Shown here: positions 30,015 to 44,718 of the stretch, one piece after another
Layout: each line of letters opens with the position of its first letter
Position numbering within the stretch: position 1 is the first letter of the stretch
Source of the DNA: Candidatus Agathobaculum intestinipullorum
GTDB taxonomy: Bacteria; Bacillota; Clostridia; Oscillospirales; Butyricicoccaceae
Direction: 5' to 3'
NCBI GenBank assembly: GCA_019117485.1
Contig: DWZQ01000015.1
Location: 1 to 64,000, forward strand
DNA length: 64,000 bases
Program-made: the position numbers and the translations under genes
Notes under the pieces: model-generated
What the model saw: only the letters and a program-made list of their open reading frames with translations
What the model was told of the DNA's origin: nothing
The model's database searches: none

Positions 30015-30311
30015 CAGCGCCCCACAAGACCGCACGCGAGCGATTCGAAAGCGTGCTCCCGGCTGCCTTTCTGCGGTTTGGGCTCAAGATCGGCAGATCT
30101 GCGGCACACGATGGTTTCCGCTTAATGCTGCTCGGTTCCCCGCCTGACATGGTTCACAGTCCTCCGTTGCGCAGTACCGGTCTCTCATCACCCTGTTGGC
30201 AGCTGCCTCGCCACGCGCACGTCCCTCTTCGCCCGCATCATCCCCGCTGTAGCGGATTGCGGGTACAGGACACCGCTAACGCCCCGATGTGTGCGGCCTT
30301 GTGCGGCGCTG
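30015..30311 (-). ncRNA. ffs: Signal recognition particle RNA, large Firmicutes type with Alu domain
   Basis: Minus strand contains GGTGTCCTGTACCCGCAATCCGCTACAGCGGGG (Alu side), TGTGAACCATGTCAGGCGGGGAACCGAGCAGCATTAAGCGGAAACC..GTGTGCCG (S-domain helix 8), and complementary ends CAGCGCCGCACAAGGCCGCAC / GTGCGGTCTTGTGGGGCGCTG; located upstream of dnaX. Confidence 0.95.
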
Positions 30312-38627: not shown

Positions 38628-38656
38628 TTGCATTTCTGCGGTTTCTGGGCTATAAT
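38628..38656 (+). promoter_or_regulatory. Promoter of polyamine operon TTGCAT-17-TATAAT
   Basis: -35 TTGCAT 38628-38633, -10 TATAAT 38651-38656. Confidence 0.8.
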
Positions 38657-38663
38657 AAATTCA

Positions 38664-39020
38664 CTCGGAGAGGCAAAGCCTTTCAGCAGAATTCTTTGAC
38701 CGCCCTTCCCCCGCCGGGAAGGTGCCAAGGCCATACGGACAGCCGGGTCAAATGCCGCACATGGCAACTTTGTTGCCTTATTGAATTTTATAAGTTGGCT
38801 GCTTAAAAGCCGTGTGCCGCGGGCGCATCACACTTGTGAAACAATCAATAAGAGTAGTAAAAGTAGATTCTTGCTATATAGACTCTTTCCTCTTCCAAAG
38901 ACAGACGGTCCGGGAAAATCCGGCCCAAAGAGAGAGATTGCCTTCCTCAAGTGTAAGTTCGTCCCGCTGCCGCGGGGCTTTTCTTTTGCTTGAGGATTTT
39001 TTATTTTTGTGAGGATAACG
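38664..39020 (+). promoter_or_regulatory. Structured ~350 nt leader of speD operon (candidate riboswitch/attenuator)
   Basis: Hairpin GAGAGGCaaaGCCTTTC; three-way junction closed by TTTGACC/GGTCAAA; hairpin GGCAACtttGTTGCC; terminator before SD. Confidence 0.65.
38944..39009 (+). terminator. Intrinsic terminator immediately 5' of speD
   Basis: CCTCAAG ... CCCGCtgccGCGGG ... CTTGAGG ATTTTTTATTTTT. Confidence 0.8.
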
Positions 39021-39022
39021 AT

Positions 39023-39790
39023 ATGCAGAGCAAACTCAAACTCTACGGGTTCAACAACCTGACCAAAGCGCTTTCCTTTAACATCTATGACGTCTGCTAC
39101 GCCAAAACCGAGCGCGAACAGCGCGACTACATCGCGTATATCGACCAGCAGTATAACTCCGAACGCCTGACCGGCATCCTCGAGCGCGTCACAGAAATGA
39201 TCGGCGCGCATGTGCTGCATATCTCCAAGCAGGATTACGACCCGCAGGGCGCCTCGGTCACCTTCCTGATTGCGGAGGAGCACATGAAGCCCGCCGCACT
39301 CGAGCCGGATACGATCGTGGCGCATCTCGACAAAAGCCATGTCACCGTGCATACCTATCCGGAGTACCATCCGGACACCTGCCTTGCGACCTTCCGCGTG
39401 GATATCGATGTGGCGACCTGCGGGGAAATCACGCCCCTGTCCACGCTTGATTACCTAATCGGCTCGTTTGACTCGGATATCATCACGATGGACTACCGCG
39501 TGCGCGGCTTCACCCGGGACATTGAAGGCAAAAAGCTGTTCATGGATCATCATATGACGTCTATTCAGGACTATATCGACCCCAAGACGCTTGACCGGTA
39601 CGATGCCATGGACGTCAACGTCTACCAGTCCAACCTGTTTCACACGCGGATGCTGCTCAAGGAGGTCGATTTGCAGAACTATCTGTTCAACACCGATATC
39701 TACGAGTTGCCGCCCAAGACACGCCTGAAAATCCACTCCGACCTGCGGCGTGAGATGATCGAGATTTTCTCGGGCAAAAACGTCTACTAA
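39023..39790 (+). CDS. speD: S-adenosylmethionine decarboxylase proenzyme (E. coli-like class)
   Basis: [54 protein letters not shown]. Confidence 0.96.
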
Positions 39791-39799
39791 TGCTGACGC

Positions 39800-39965
39800 T
39801 TCGGTCGGAAATACATTTCCGACCGAGGGGACGCACCGGACAACGTCCGGATGCGTCCGTTGCGCCGATTTGCGCGCCAATCCGGCACACAAATCGGCTC
39901 CCTTGTATCAAAAGCACGGGCAAAGCCCGCGCTTTTGATGGAAATATGCGCTTTACGCGCAATAT
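39800..39965 (+). repeat. Multi-hairpin intergenic repeat, copy 4 (inside the spe operon)
   Basis: GGGGACGCACCGGAC..GTCCGGATGCGTCC; CCGATTTG..CAAATCGG; TTGTATCAAAAGCACGGGC..GCCCGCGCTTTTGAT. Confidence 0.85.
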
Positions 39966-39988
39966 CCCTTCCGAAAGAAGGTTTTATA

Positions 39989-41449
39989 ATGGATCAATCC
40001 CGCGCGCCGATCAAGGAGGCGCTCGAACACTTTAAGGATATGCGCATCGTGCCGTTTGATGTCCCCGGACACAAGCGCGGCCGCGGCAACCCAGAACTGA
40101 CGCGGTTTCTGGGCGAACAGTGCATGACGGTTGACGTAAACTCCATGAAGCCGCTCGACAACCTGTGCCACCCGGTCAGCGTCATTCGTGAGGCGGAAGA
40201 ACTGGCCGCCGAGGCCTTCGGCGCGGCGCACGCCTTCCTGATGGTCGGCGGCACCACCTCGTCCGTGCAGTCGATGGTTTTAAGCGTCGTCGCACGCGGC
40301 GATGAGATCATCCTGCCGCGCAACGTACACCGCTCGGTCATCAATGCGCTGGTGCTGACCGGCGCCATCCCGGTTTATGTCAACCCGCAGATGAACGACC
40401 GGCTGGGCATTTCGCTGGGCATGTCGGTTGCGGACGTGAAAAAGGCAATCGAAAAGCACCCCTCGGCCAAGGCCGTGCTGGTCAACAACCCGACCTATTA
40501 CGGCATCTGCTCCGACCTAAAGGAGATCGTGCGGCTCGCGCACGCGGCGGGCATGAAGGTGCTGGCCGACGAAGCCCACGGCACGCACTTCTATTTTGGG
40601 GAAAACATGCCAGTGTCCGCCATGGCCGCGGGCGCCGACCTTGCTTCGGTTTCCATGCACAAATCGGGCGGCAGCCTGACGCAGTCGAGCTTCCTGCTGT
40701 GCGGCCCGGATATGAACGCCGAATACGTCCGCCAGATCATCAACCTGACACAGACGACCTCCGGCTCGTACCTACTGATGGTCAGTCTGGATATTTCGCG
40801 CAAAAACCTTGCGCTTTATGGCAAAGATATTTTTAATCGGGTGACACGACTGACCGAGTACGCCCGCGAGGAAATCAACCAACTGGGCGACTATTACGCC
40901 TACGGCCGCGAGCTGATCGACGGGGACGCGGTCTGTGACTTCGACGTGACCAAGCTGGCCGTCAACACGCTCGACGTTGGTCTTGCAGGCATCGAAGTCT
41001 ACGACGTGCTGCGCGACTTTTACGACATCCAGACCGAGTTCGGCGACCTCGGCAACCTGCTGGCCTATGTCTCGGTCGGCGACCGTGAACGTGACCTCGA
41101 GCGTCTGGTCGCGGCGCTGTCCGACATCCACCGGCGCTATAAACGCGACAAGGCAACGCTCATGCGACAGGAGTACATTGCGCCGCAGGTCGTCGCCGCC
41201 CCGCAGGAAGCGTTCTACGCGGACAAGCAGGCCGTCCCGCTGGAGGAAGCCTCCGGCCGTATCTGCGCCGAGTTTGTTATGTGCTATCCGCCCGGCATCC
41301 CGATCCTTGCCCCGGGCGAACGCATCACCCGCGAGATCATTGATTATATCCGCTACGCCAAAGACAAAAACTGCATGTTGCTGGGCACCGAAGACCCGGA
41401 AGTGAACGATTTGCAGGTCATCCGCGGCGTGGTCAGCCCCGGTGTCTGA
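39989..41449 (+). CDS. Orn/Lys/Arg decarboxylase (fold type I), probable arginine decarboxylase
   Basis: PFDVPGHKRGRGNPELTRFLG; VLADEAHGTHFYFGENMPVSAMAAGADLASVSMHKSGGSLTQSS. Confidence 0.93.
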   Translation: MDQSRAPIKEALEHFKDMRIVPFDVPGHKRGRGNPELTRFLGEQCMTVDVNSMKPLDNLCHPVSVIREAEELAAEAFGAAHAFLMVGGTTSSVQSMVLSVVARGDEIILPRNVHRSVINALVLTGAIPVYVNPQMNDRLGISLGMSVADVKKAIEKHPSAKAVLVNNPTYYGICSDLKEIVRLAHAAGMKVLADEAHGTHFYFGENMPVSAMAAGADLASVSMHKSGGSLTQSSFLLCGPDMNAEYVRQIINLTQTTSGSYLLMVSLDISRKNLALYGKDIFNRVTRLTEYAREEINQLGDYYAYGRELIDGDAVCDFDVTKLAVNTLDVGLAGIEVYDVLRDFYDIQTEFGDLGNLLAYVSVGDRERDLERLVAALSDIHRRYKRDKATLMRQEYIAPQVVAAPQEAFYADKQAVPLEEASGRICAEFVMCYPPGIPILAPGERITREIIDYIRYAKDKNCMLLGTEDPEVNDLQVIRGVVSPGV

Positions 41450-41465
41450 ACAAGGAGAATGTTTC

Positions 41466-42323
41466 ATGCGACTCACCTTTACCGAAATGCACACGCCGAC
41501 CGTCGGCCTGCAAATTCAGGTCGACCGGCAGCTTTACACCGAACAGAGCGACTTCCAGCGCATCGACGTGTTCGAGTGCGAAGAATTCGGCCGTTTTTTG
41601 ACGCTCGACGGCTATATGATGCTGACCGAGCGCGACGAATTTATCTACCATGAGATGATGGTACACGTCCCGCTCGCTGTGCTGGGCGACCAGATCAAAA
41701 AAGTGCTGGTCATCGGCGGCGGCGACGGCGGCTGCGTGCGCGAGCTGTGCCGCTATCCGCACATCGAGCATATTGACCTCGTCGAAATCGACGAGCGCGT
41801 GGTCGCGGTGTGCAAGGAATTTTTGCCGACCGTCGCGTGCAGTCTGGACGACCCGCGCGTGCACATCCTCTATCAGGACGGGCTGAAATACATCCGCCGC
41901 ATTGAGGATGCGTATGACCTCATCATCATCGACTCGACCGACCCGTTCGGCCCGGGCGAAGGGTTGTTCACCATGGAGTTCTATGGCAACTGCTACAAAG
42001 CGCTGAAAGAGCATGGCGTGCTGGTCAACCAGCACGAAAGCCCGTTCTATAAGGGTGACGCGCTCGCCTGCCAACGCGCGCACCGCAACATCGTCCACTC
42101 GTTTGAGCTGTCCCGCCTGTTTCAAGCGCACATACCGACCTACCCGTCCGGCCACTGGCTGTTCGGTTTCTCGTCCCGCGGCGTGCATCCGGTGCATGGC
42201 CTCGACGCGGATGCATGGAACGCCCGCGGCATCGAAACCAAGTATTACAACACCAATCTGCACAAAGGTGCGTTTTATTTACCGAATTACGTTCAAAAAC
42301 TACTGGAAAAAGTGGAGGAATGA
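41466..42323 (+). CDS. speE: Spermidine synthase family (polyamine aminopropyltransferase)
   Basis: TEQSDFQRIDVFECEEFGRFLTLDGYMMLTERDEFIYHEMM; VLVIGGGDGGCVREL. Confidence 0.96.
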   Translation: MRLTFTEMHTPTVGLQIQVDRQLYTEQSDFQRIDVFECEEFGRFLTLDGYMMLTERDEFIYHEMMVHVPLAVLGDQIKKVLVIGGGDGGCVRELCRYPHIEHIDLVEIDERVVAVCKEFLPTVACSLDDPRVHILYQDGLKYIRRIEDAYDLIIIDSTDPFGPGEGLFTMEFYGNCYKALKEHGVLVNQHESPFYKGDALACQRAHRNIVHSFELSRLFQAHIPTYPSGHWLFGFSSRGVHPVHGLDADAWNARGIETKYYNTNLHKGAFYLPNYVQKLLEKVEE

Positions 42324-42326
42324 TTT

Positions 42327-43586
42327 ATGGGAAAAGCACTCATTATCGGCTGCGGCGGTGTCGCCTCGGTTGTCATTCACAAATGCTGCCAGAACAGCAG
42401 CGTATTTGAGGAAATCATGATTGCCTCGCGCACTAAGTCCAAGTGTGACGCAATCAAGGAAAAGCTGGATGGTACCACTCCCACCAAGATTCGCACCGCC
42501 AAGGTCGATGCGGACAATGTAGACGAGCTGGTAGCGCTCATCGACGAATACAAGCCGGATATCGTGATGAACATTGCCCTGCCCTATCAAGATTTGACCA
42601 TCATGGATGCGTGCCTCAAGTGCGGCGTCAACTATATGGACACGGCCAATTATGAGCCGGAGGATACGGACGATCCCGCGTGGCGCGAAATTTACGAGAA
42701 GCGCTGCAAGGAAGCGGGCTTTACTGCCTACTTTGACTACTCGTGGCAGTGGGCATACAAGGAAAAGTTCGAAAAGGCCGGTCTCACCGCGCTTTTAGGC
42801 TCGGGTTTTGACCCGGGTGTGACGCAGGCTTACTGCGCCTATGCTCAAAAGCACCTGTTCGACCAGATCGACACCATCGACATCCTCGACTGCAACGGCG
42901 GCGACCATGGCTATCCGTTCGCCACCAACTTCAACCCCGAGATCAACCTGCGTGAGGTTTCCGCGCCCGGCTCCTACTGGGAGGATGGCCACTGGGTCGA
43001 GATTCCGGCGATGTCTATCAAGCGCGAATACGACTTCGATCAGGTCGGCAAAAAGGATATGTACCTGCTGCACCATGAGGAAATCGAATCGCTGGCGAAA
43101 AATATCCCCGGCGTTAAGCGCATCCGCTTCTTTATGACCTTCGGCCAGTCGTACCTGACCCACATGAAGTGTCTGGAGAACGTCGGCATGCTGTCCACTG
43201 CCCCGATCGAATTTGAGGGACACCAGATCGTGCCGATCCAGTTCCTCAAGGCGCTGCTGCCCGATCCGGCCACCCTCGGCCCGCGCACCAAGGGCAAGAC
43301 CAACATCGGCTGCATCTTCACCGGCAAGAAGGACGGCAAGGAAAAGACCGCCTATATCTACAACGTCTGCGACCATGAGGCGTGCTACCGCGAGGTCGGC
43401 TCGCAGGCCATCAGCTATACGACCGGCGTGCCCGCGATGATCGGCGCGGCGATGCTGATGACCGGCAAGTGGAACAAACCCGGCGTGTATACGGTCGAGG
43501 AGTTTGATCCCGATCCGTACATGGAAGCGCTGAACAAGTGGGGCCTGCCGTGGCAGATCAACGAGAACCCGGCGCTGGTGGACTGA
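42327..43586 (+). CDS. Saccharopine dehydrogenase family, carboxy(nor)spermidine dehydrogenase
   Basis: ALIIGCGGVASVVIHKCCQ; YFDYSWQWAY; GSGFDPGVTQAYCAYAQKH. Confidence 0.93.
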   Translation: MGKALIIGCGGVASVVIHKCCQNSSVFEEIMIASRTKSKCDAIKEKLDGTTPTKIRTAKVDADNVDELVALIDEYKPDIVMNIALPYQDLTIMDACLKCGVNYMDTANYEPEDTDDPAWREIYEKRCKEAGFTAYFDYSWQWAYKEKFEKAGLTALLGSGFDPGVTQAYCAYAQKHLFDQIDTIDILDCNGGDHGYPFATNFNPEINLREVSAPGSYWEDGHWVEIPAMSIKREYDFDQVGKKDMYLLHHEEIESLAKNIPGVKRIRFFMTFGQSYLTHMKCLENVGMLSTAPIEFEGHQIVPIQFLKALLPDPATLGPRTKGKTNIGCIFTGKKDGKEKTAYIYNVCDHEACYREVGSQAISYTTGVPAMIGAAMLMTGKWNKPGVYTVEEFDPDPYMEALNKWGLPWQINENPALVD

Positions 43587-43587
43587 T

Positions 43588-44718
43588 ATGAAATTTACCG
43601 AACTGCCCACGCCCTGCTTCCTTGTGGACGAAAACCGTCTGGTGCAGAACTTAGCTGTACTGCGCGACGTTGCCGAACGCACCGGCGCAAAGATCTTACT
43701 CGCACAAAAGGCGTTTTCCATGTTCGCAGTCTATCCGCTGCTGCGTGAATATCTGGCAGGCACCACCGCGTCCGGCCTGTACGAAGCGCGGCTCGGACAC
43801 GAGGAATTCGGCGGCGAGACCCACGTCTACTCCCCGGCCTATGCCGAGGGCGAATTTCAGGAGCTGCTGCACTACGCCGACCACATTGTGTTCAACTCGT
43901 TCACCCAGTGGAAGGCCTATGGCAGCCTTGCGCGTGCGGCTGGCAAAAGCTGCGGCCTGCGCGTCAACCCGGAGTGCTCGACCCAGCCCGCCGAGCACGC
44001 AATCTACGACCCCTGCGGCCCAAACTCCCGTCTGGGCATCACGCAGGAAAATTTCCAGCCCGAGCTGCTGACCGGCATCGACGGCCTGCACTTCCACACC
44101 CTGTGCGAGCAGAACGCAGACGATCTGGTACGCACAGTCGCAGCGTTTGAAGAGCGCTTCGGCGAGTACATGGAGGGCATGAAGTGGCTCAACCTTGGCG
44201 GCGGCCACCACATCACGCGCGACGATTATGACGTGGAAACACTGGTGAAGTGCATCAACGACCTGCGCGAAAAATATAACGTGCAGATTTATCTCGAGCC
44301 GGGTGAAGCCGTTGTGCTGAACGCAGGCTATCTCGTGGCGACCGTGCTGGAAGTGATGAAAAACGGCAAGGAAATCGCCATTCTGGACACCTCAGCCGCC
44401 TGCCACATGCCAGACGTGCTCGAAATGCCCTACCGTCCGCCCGTGTTCCGCGCGGATGAGCCGGGCAAAAAGGCGTTCACCTACCTGCTGACCGGCCGCT
44501 CGTGCCTTGCGGGCGACGTGATCGGAGAATACTCGTTCGATACCACACTGCGCCCGGGCGATCAAGTCGTATTTGAGGACATGGCGCTGTACACCATGGT
44601 CAAAACCAATACCTTTAACGGCGTGCCGCTCCCGCTGCTTGCGGTTCGCCGTGCGGACGGCACAGACGAAGCCGTGCGGATGTTTGGCTATGAGGATTTT
44701 AAACACCGGCTTTCTTAA
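43588..44718 (+). CDS. nspC: Carboxynorspermidine decarboxylase
   Basis: TPCFLVDENRLVQNLAVL; KILLAQKAFS; GLHFHTLCEQ; LEPGEAVVLNAGYLVATVL. Confidence 0.95.
   Translation: MKFTELPTPCFLVDENRLVQNLAVLRDVAERTGAKILLAQKAFSMFAVYPLLREYLAGTTASGLYEARLGHEEFGGETHVYSPAYAEGEFQELLHYADHIVFNSFTQWKAYGSLARAAGKSCGLRVNPECSTQPAEHAIYDPCGPNSRLGITQENFQPELLTGIDGLHFHTLCEQNADDLVRTVAAFEERFGEYMEGMKWLNLGGGHHITRDDYDVETLVKCINDLREKYNVQIYLEPGEAVVLNAGYLVATVLEVMKNGKEIAILDTSAACHMPDVLEMPYRPPVFRADEPGKKAFTYLLTGRSCLAGDVIGEYSFDTTLRPGDQVVFEDMALYTMVKTNTFNGVPLPLLAVRRADGTDEAVRMFGYEDFKHRLS

Follow-up and report, generated by a model that had tools for sequence, protein, structure and literature searches.

What does the long untranslated leader of a clostridial polyamine operon do? 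In the window (the whole 64,000-nucleotide stretch of DNA analysed, from Candidatus Agathobaculum intestinipullorum), about 360 nt separate a promoter from the start of speD at position 39023. The first-pass annotation, made from the letters alone, took them for a candidate riboswitch or attenuator leader ending in a transcription terminator. The best-supported reading remains that of a polyamine-operon leader that senses a ligand and terminates transcription, ligand binding itself being a prediction. The RNA is, with reasonable probability, a cis-acting polyamine riboswitch working as a genetic OFF switch, of a class undescribed in the literature searched. If so, it would explain polyamine sensing in many of these bacteria and offer an example of a large RNA pocket selective for a polycation with hardly any features, and a supposed small RNA (sRNA) would have to be re-annotated as a cis switch.

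The operon and its promoter

The genes downstream of the leader (here and below on the + strand, unless stated) are speD, encoding S-adenosylmethionine decarboxylase (39023-39790; TIGR03331, 410.7 bits, cut-off 255.8); a putative speA-type Orn/Lys/Arg decarboxylase of the aspartate aminotransferase fold (39989-41449; LdcC/ADC/ODC matches below cut-off); speE, encoding spermidine synthase (41466-42323; TIGR00417 and NF002010, over cut-off); the gene of a carboxy(nor)spermidine dehydrogenase (CASDH, 42327-43586; NF043000, 423.5 bits, below the cut-off of 800); and nspC, encoding carboxy(nor)spermidine decarboxylase (CASDC, 43588-44718; TIGR01047, over cut-off). The operon (39023-44718) combines two routes to spermidine, one SAM-dependent (speD, speE) and one SAM-free, by way of carboxyspermidine (CASDH, nspC); they may be redundant or may lead to different triamine products. 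Its proteins are 92-98% identical to those of the nearest named relatives, two uncultured Agathobaculum (L116, L087).

The promoter TTGCAT-17-TATAAT (38628-38656; -35 at 38628-38633, -10 at 38651-38656), proposed in the first pass, was borne out. The spacing is 17 nt, the -10 element is perfect, and the pattern TTGCAW-17-TATAAT (TTGCAT or TTGCAA) is kept in most loci of the same genus, where the only conserved promoter seen is this one, upstream of the RNA. The -35 element has only three of six matches, so that a simple promoter scan makes no call here. The leader as a whole folds to -129.3 kcal/mol, as compared with -103.7 ± 5.4 for shuffled sequences (z -4.8).

A conserved RNA larger than its Rfam entry

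A search against 4227 Rfam families gave a single match in the leader, RF02440 (SpF59_sRNA / ldcC RNA), of which positions 38697-38758 are a clear member (61 bits, gathering cut-off 37.2); the next best matches were at chance level, and SAM-I, SAM, lysine, guanidine and the other riboswitch and T-box classes gave no Rfam match even at E 10. The Rfam comparison suggested in the first pass therefore does find a family, but one that is an uncharacterised entry over a peripheral piece and not a known riboswitch class. Indeed, RF02440 is filed as 'Gene; sRNA', the Streptococcus sRNA SpF59 (ldcC RNA), with no function given. It covers only a side domain of 54-62 nt, namely the peripheral three-way junction (54 nt in the entry itself), while the conserved RNA is a leader element of about 210 nt, about four times longer.

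Homologous loci, at least 166, were collected from RF02440 matches and from one exact-pattern search of the GTDB species set. Because this pattern specifies 21 nt of the core, part of the conservation inside it is imposed in L019-L137, whereas conservation outside it is not. Among the loci listed, the conserved stretch reaches from helix P1 to UUGCUAUAUAGACUCU and includes the near-invariant segments UUAUUGA, UUUUAUAAGUUGG, ACUUGUGAAA, UCAAUAAGAGUAGUAAAAGU and UAUAUAGACUCU. A covariance model (R1) was built from a sequence-only MAFFT alignment of 51 diverged copies (A1). It matches the whole conserved RNA, i.e. the candidate aptamer domain, at 38682-38887 (157.6 bits, E 1.1e-38), the sole match in the genome. 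Of 400 genomes sampled from the phylum, 24 (about 6%) have a match to R1 and 18 a match to RF02440, and the seven copies that R1 adds all precede SpeD or SpeA. Several copies found by R1 only are without the RF02440 domain yet have the 3' core, which indicates that RF02440 models a dispensable side domain. The elements drawn in the first pass stood, but the second domain and the pseudoknot (38778-38887), at least equally conserved, had been missed.

Secondary structure and pseudoknot

The overall architecture in relatives comprises an outer stem, a three-way junction, a second domain of several helices and a pseudoknot. When a model of 60 pairs including the pseudoknot was applied to A1, 91.0% of the cells were paired, as compared with 85.5% (sd 0.3) after shuffling and 30-46% with slid partners; its covariation score was 0.200 versus 0.104 for shuffled alignments, a value reached in 0 of 500 shuffles. 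Pairs changed on both sides occur in P1, P2, P3, P4, P6, P8 and P9, the last being poorly aligned in A1 (41% paired). P5 and P7 are almost invariant and show little covariation, and their pairing therefore rests on complementarity and conservation. The sequence comparison thus points to a conserved, covarying structured domain in the 5' leader, as expected of a riboswitch.

P1 is formed by 38686-38694 and 38866-38874. The three-way junction (38695-38752) is made of P2 (38695-38701/38746-38752), P3 (38702-38725) and P3b (GGC 38729-38731/GCC 38742-38744), and is supported by covariation. The first-pass drawing of this region, with TTTGACC/GGTCAAA closing the junction around an inner hairpin (38704-38722) and a GGC/GCC arm, agrees with relatives, in which all these pairings are kept with compensatory changes: five of five pairs of P3 have changed on both sides, as has the P2 pair of columns 26-98 in A1, and P3b passes from G-C to A-U in L018, a change visible also in L016. 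A CGG/CCG core pairing suggested by RNAalifold was rejected, since the GGC/GCC arm better accounts for the few changes seen (G-C to A-U, L018).

The hairpin GGCAAC-TTT-GTTGCC, present at 38763-38777 as first noted, is P4, with changes on both sides in six of six pairs. It was also considered as an early terminator and discarded, being a conserved helix within the aptamer with no U-tract after it. In the second domain, P5 (38778-38784 with 38845-38851) is nearly invariant and always paired, and P7 joins UUUUAUAAGU (38786-38795) to its 3' strand ACUUGUGAAA (38832-38841), is mostly invariant and has 95-98% of its cells paired. P7 encloses the hairpins P8 and P9 (38797-38828; from folding and A1), and hairpin P6 is missing from the window copy. 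The pseudoknot pairs AGAGU (38851-38855) with ACUCU (38882-38886), in 98% of the cells, and crosses P1; its second strand belongs to the conserved segment 38866-38886, which combines the 3' strand of P1 with the invariant UAUAUAGACUCU. Both strands are invariant in most copies, and double changes restore the pairing in L141 (AGCGU/ACGCU) and in L099 and L190 (UGAGC/GCUCA).

When each strand was confronted with mismatched partners, a control whose partners share base composition and ancestry with the test pairs, the own-partner helix score of P1 was 15.7 versus 12.1 (sd 0.24), and the complementarity of the outer stem P0 over many loci was -15.99 versus -12.18 (sd 0.22). In most loci the strands of P0 lie 5' of P1 and 3' of GACUCU. 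P0 is well supported, and it can include GACUCU, thereby competing with the pseudoknot. An arrangement in which GACUCU pairs only with an upstream AGAGUC, in P0, and forms no pseudoknot was rejected because in L141, L099 and L190 GACUCU changes with the inner AGAGU, not with the upstream strand. The support for P0 goes beyond GACUCU itself; both helices are therefore kept and may alternate, and they could be alternative states of the switch. In the window, the segment before P1 (38667-38684) forms either the 5' hairpin GAGAGGC-AAA-GCCTTTC, which is present at 38668-38684 as first described, or the 5' side of P0 with approximately 38885-38896, and its details are uncertain.

Terminator and antiterminator

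The terminator CCTCAAG/CTTGAGG (38945-38995), with a U-tract up to 39008, was confirmed 14 nt 5' of the ATG at 39023; the whole element (38945-39008) has a folding energy of -29.1 kcal/mol. Its 5' arm carries CAAGUGU (38948-38954), which is complementary to ACACUUG (38830-38836), a run overlapping the 3' strand of P7 and forming the 5' partner of an antiterminator. Of the 149 segmented leaders among the loci listed, 142 gave an intrinsic terminator call. A few of these calls are plainly mistaken or far off; most place the terminator 20-190 nt 3' of the motif and just 5' of the gene. The 5' arm reads CAAGY or CAGGY followed by UGUG, GAUG and similar sequences, the complement of the 3' strands of helices P9 and P7 (...CACA/CAUC..ACUUG).

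This complementarity co-varies with the aptamer. The duplex of the arm with its own aptamer strand has a mean energy of -15.39 kcal/mol, as compared with -13.05 (sd 0.26) for the arms of other loci, again sharing composition and ancestry, and -8.74 for shuffled arms. The best aptamer sites for the arm fall on the ACUUG strands of P9/P7 in 98 of 132 cases, and loci with CAUC before ACUUG tend to have GAUG or AAUG in the terminator arm (p 2.5e-5 by a Fisher test that ignores relatedness). The strands being shared, the aptamer fold (P7, P9) and the antiterminator are mutually exclusive, as are the antiterminator and the terminator, from which it follows that ligand binding to the aptamer should terminate transcription. 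These predicted alternative folds are what the expression platform of a riboswitch would have, with energetics that are only partly supportive: nearest-neighbour folding, which models neither ligand nor pseudoknot, favours the aptamer fold over the antiterminator by a median of 6.1 kcal/mol over 114 loci and by 2.8 in the window, and for most loci it therefore does not predict the ON state as the minimum.

Genes under the RNA and distribution

The first recognised gene 3' of the RNA encodes SpeD in 68 cases, a SpeA-type decarboxylase in 43, CASDH in 28 and PotA in 16, which accounts for all 155 listed copies with enough DNA, i.e. the loci left after setting aside ten that end within 580 nt of the core and the mis-anchored L016 (the same copy as L184, which precedes SpeD). 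Conservation in the leaders of relatives, a point on which the first-pass reading could have failed, was thus found upstream of polyamine genes in every testable listed copy, and the gene associations point to polyamines without exception. CASDH-first operons are found in Paenibacillus and Bacillus relatives, and NCBIfam confirmed PotA and PotD of L021. In L084, an ORF of 132 amino acids, PII protein-like by eye, lies between the RNA and potA, approximately 200-600 nt after the core.

In the window's family, R1 is found in 44 of 87 genomes, half of them, and SpeD in 42; both occur in 37 genomes, the RNA only in 7, SpeD only in 5 and neither in 38, all association counts being inflated by the relatedness of the genomes. 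The RNA occurs commonly among gut Clostridia, Paenibacillus and Bacillus relatives. Its association with polyamine genes extends over Oscillospiraceae, Lachnospiraceae, Paenibacillus, Bacillus and relatives, Acidaminococcus and a MAG labelled Spirochaetes, and the RNA itself is present also in MAGs labelled Synergistaceae.

Proposed switch and ligand

The observations that carry the argument are a conserved structure with covariation, an association with polyamine genes only, a terminator, and an antiterminator complementarity that co-varies. From them we infer direct binding of a ligand, its identity and the direction of the switch. The nascent leader would fold into the aptamer of about 210 nt, with P1, the three-way junction, the P5/P7 domain and the pseudoknot. 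At high polyamine levels (the polyamine sensed being most likely spermidine or a similar triamine), ligand binding would stabilize this fold; P7 and P9 would then retain the ...CACUUG strand, leaving the 5' arm of the terminator free, and transcription would stop before speD. When polyamines are low, CACUUG would instead pair with CAAGUG of the arm, and this antiterminator would block the terminator and allow transcription of speD-speA-speE-CASDH-CASDC.

The same RNA precedes speD/speE (SAM-dependent), CASDH/CASDC (SAM-free) and potABCD (uptake) genes, sets that share only polyamines as product or substrate, which makes the polyamine pool their common denominator. As to pathway fit, SAM, decarboxylated SAM (dcSAM) and MTA are unsuited to CASDH or potABCD, and agmatine, arginine and lysine to CASDH or speD. 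The first-pass list of ligands is accordingly narrowed: polyamines are favoured, and SAM/dcSAM, MTA and agmatine/arginine are unlikely, because SAM-free CASDH-CASDC and potABCD operons are under the same RNA. Spermidine or a close triamine is the first choice, with a somewhat better than even chance taken by itself, followed by putrescine and by a general polyamine response.

Alternative explanations

A structured, conserved leader with a terminator has the same anatomy as protein-binding leaders, and small-molecule binding is here a prediction; a polyamine-sensing regulatory protein might bind the RNA and stabilize the terminator or the antiterminator, as in PyrR or ribosomal-protein leaders. 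A size of about 210 nt, long invariant single-stranded stretches and a pseudoknot are, however, typical of aptamers, and known protein-binding attenuators are smaller. Furthermore, no regulator gene travels with the RNA in the operons inspected, and the RNA is present in very different Bacillota as well as in the MAGs labelled Spirochaetes and Synergistaceae, so that we hold a protein-dependent attenuator to be unlikely, if still the alternative with most in its favour. Attenuation mediated by the ribosome on a leader peptide has a precedent in Enterobacteria, where polyamine genes are under control of the speFL type, but the window's leader contains no upstream ORF with a Shine-Dalgarno sequence except frames of one and four codons at its very end, and loop lengths vary in relatives without keeping a frame; among the explanations considered, this is the least probable.

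That speD uses SAM, and SpeA-type enzymes arginine or lysine, would suit a riboswitch for another ligand (e.g. SAM, dcSAM, MTA, agmatine, arginine, lysine or a divalent cation). The SAM-free and uptake operons under the same RNA, and the lack of Rfam matches to SAM, lysine, guanidine and other classes at E 10, make such a ligand improbable, slightly more so than a protein. The SpF59 label, finally, would imply a leader transcribed alone and acting in trans on other mRNAs, in line with the Rfam type and with the listing of pneumococcal F59 as an sRNA with a lung phenotype (PMC4387999). Against this, the RNA lies directly 5' of polyamine genes in all testable listed copies, the terminator arm co-varies with it, and in the window's family it goes with speD; a purely trans-acting RNA is thus very improbable, an additional trans role besides that of a cis leader being compatible with the data.

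Relation to known RNAs

The favoured reading, a polyamine-responsive cis leader, can be set beside what is on record for pneumococcus. F59, the source RNA of RF02440, was reported as an sRNA located between SP0915 and SP0916 (PMC3395615); a later list treats F59, srn235 and Spd_sr49 as one RNA of 327 nt, at 869478-869804 (PMC12323649). It is just 5' of SP0916, a polyamine decarboxylase gene (PMC3395615, PMC12323649); a counterpart of the window RNA stands likewise before a pneumococcal polyamine operon, in an organism whose polyamine genes cadA, speE, lys9, nspC and aguAB have been treated together (PMC5872165). A separate short F59/srn235/Spd_sr49 RNA is what a prematurely terminated leader is expected to look like, and F59 may well be one.

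The sole polyamine riboswitch class found described is a rare SAM-I offshoot, the spermidine riboswitch of Salvail et al. 2023, with a four-stem aptamer and 13 members, mostly in Bacillus relatives; its authors state that there must be further classes (PMC10853860). If the present reading is right, both are OFF switches with an intrinsic terminator and antiterminator ahead of polyamine genes (speE, speB, speD and ldcC in the earlier class), and the window RNA would work like that class without being a member of it. Membership was rejected, as there is no SAM-I match up to E 10 and the covarying structure differs; the window RNA has another architecture, with a pseudoknot, and a far wider distribution. 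The odc1 and potE motifs of Brewer et al. 2021 are likewise candidate structured leaders linked to polyamine genes, but odc1 is an element containing an upstream ORF and potE is about 200 nt from its gene, and both are set apart from the window RNA by their described genes and sequence (PMC8632094).

No description of the RNA as a riboswitch was found in the literature searched, motif papers included and Weinberg et al. 2017 (224 motifs) excepted, and the Rfam alias 'ldcC RNA' implies that someone has already noticed the link with a decarboxylase gene; the claim of novelty is limited by both. Within these limits, the RNA is probably a polyamine sensor, most likely for spermidine, that occurs naturally, is widespread and has so far gone undescribed. 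On balance it is also likely to be a second natural class of polyamine (spermidine) riboswitch, structurally unrelated to the first and far more widespread. Such a class would have an aptamer of about 210 nt with several helices and a pseudoknot, would be set over SAM-dependent and SAM-free synthesis and uptake, and would stand concealed in Rfam behind a 54-nt streptococcal 'sRNA'.

Variant copies

Five relatives (L187, L188, L189, L190 and L191) are shortened or strongly diverged. They keep the 3' core (CUUGUGAA, GUCAAUAAGAGUAGUAAAAGU, P1 and ACUC) and are without the RF02440 three-way junction; they may show the minimal ligand-binding core. In some of them the loss includes the RF02440 domain or goes beyond it, and their expression platform may be a different one. 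A distinct sub-group 5' of speD (L060, L080, L092, L129) has GGACCUCUUGCCCGUGGGCGUG, or a sequence close to it, in place of UAUAUAGACUCU at the 3' end and no clear terminator close to the motif, and its expression platform may differ as well. Three copies before SpeA (L022, L024, L029) are without P1 and the usual pseudoknot strand, and keep the CAAG-type terminator arrangement. Elsewhere in the window, the large bacterial signal recognition particle RNA is encoded on the - strand at 30030-30296 (RF01854, 143.5 bits).
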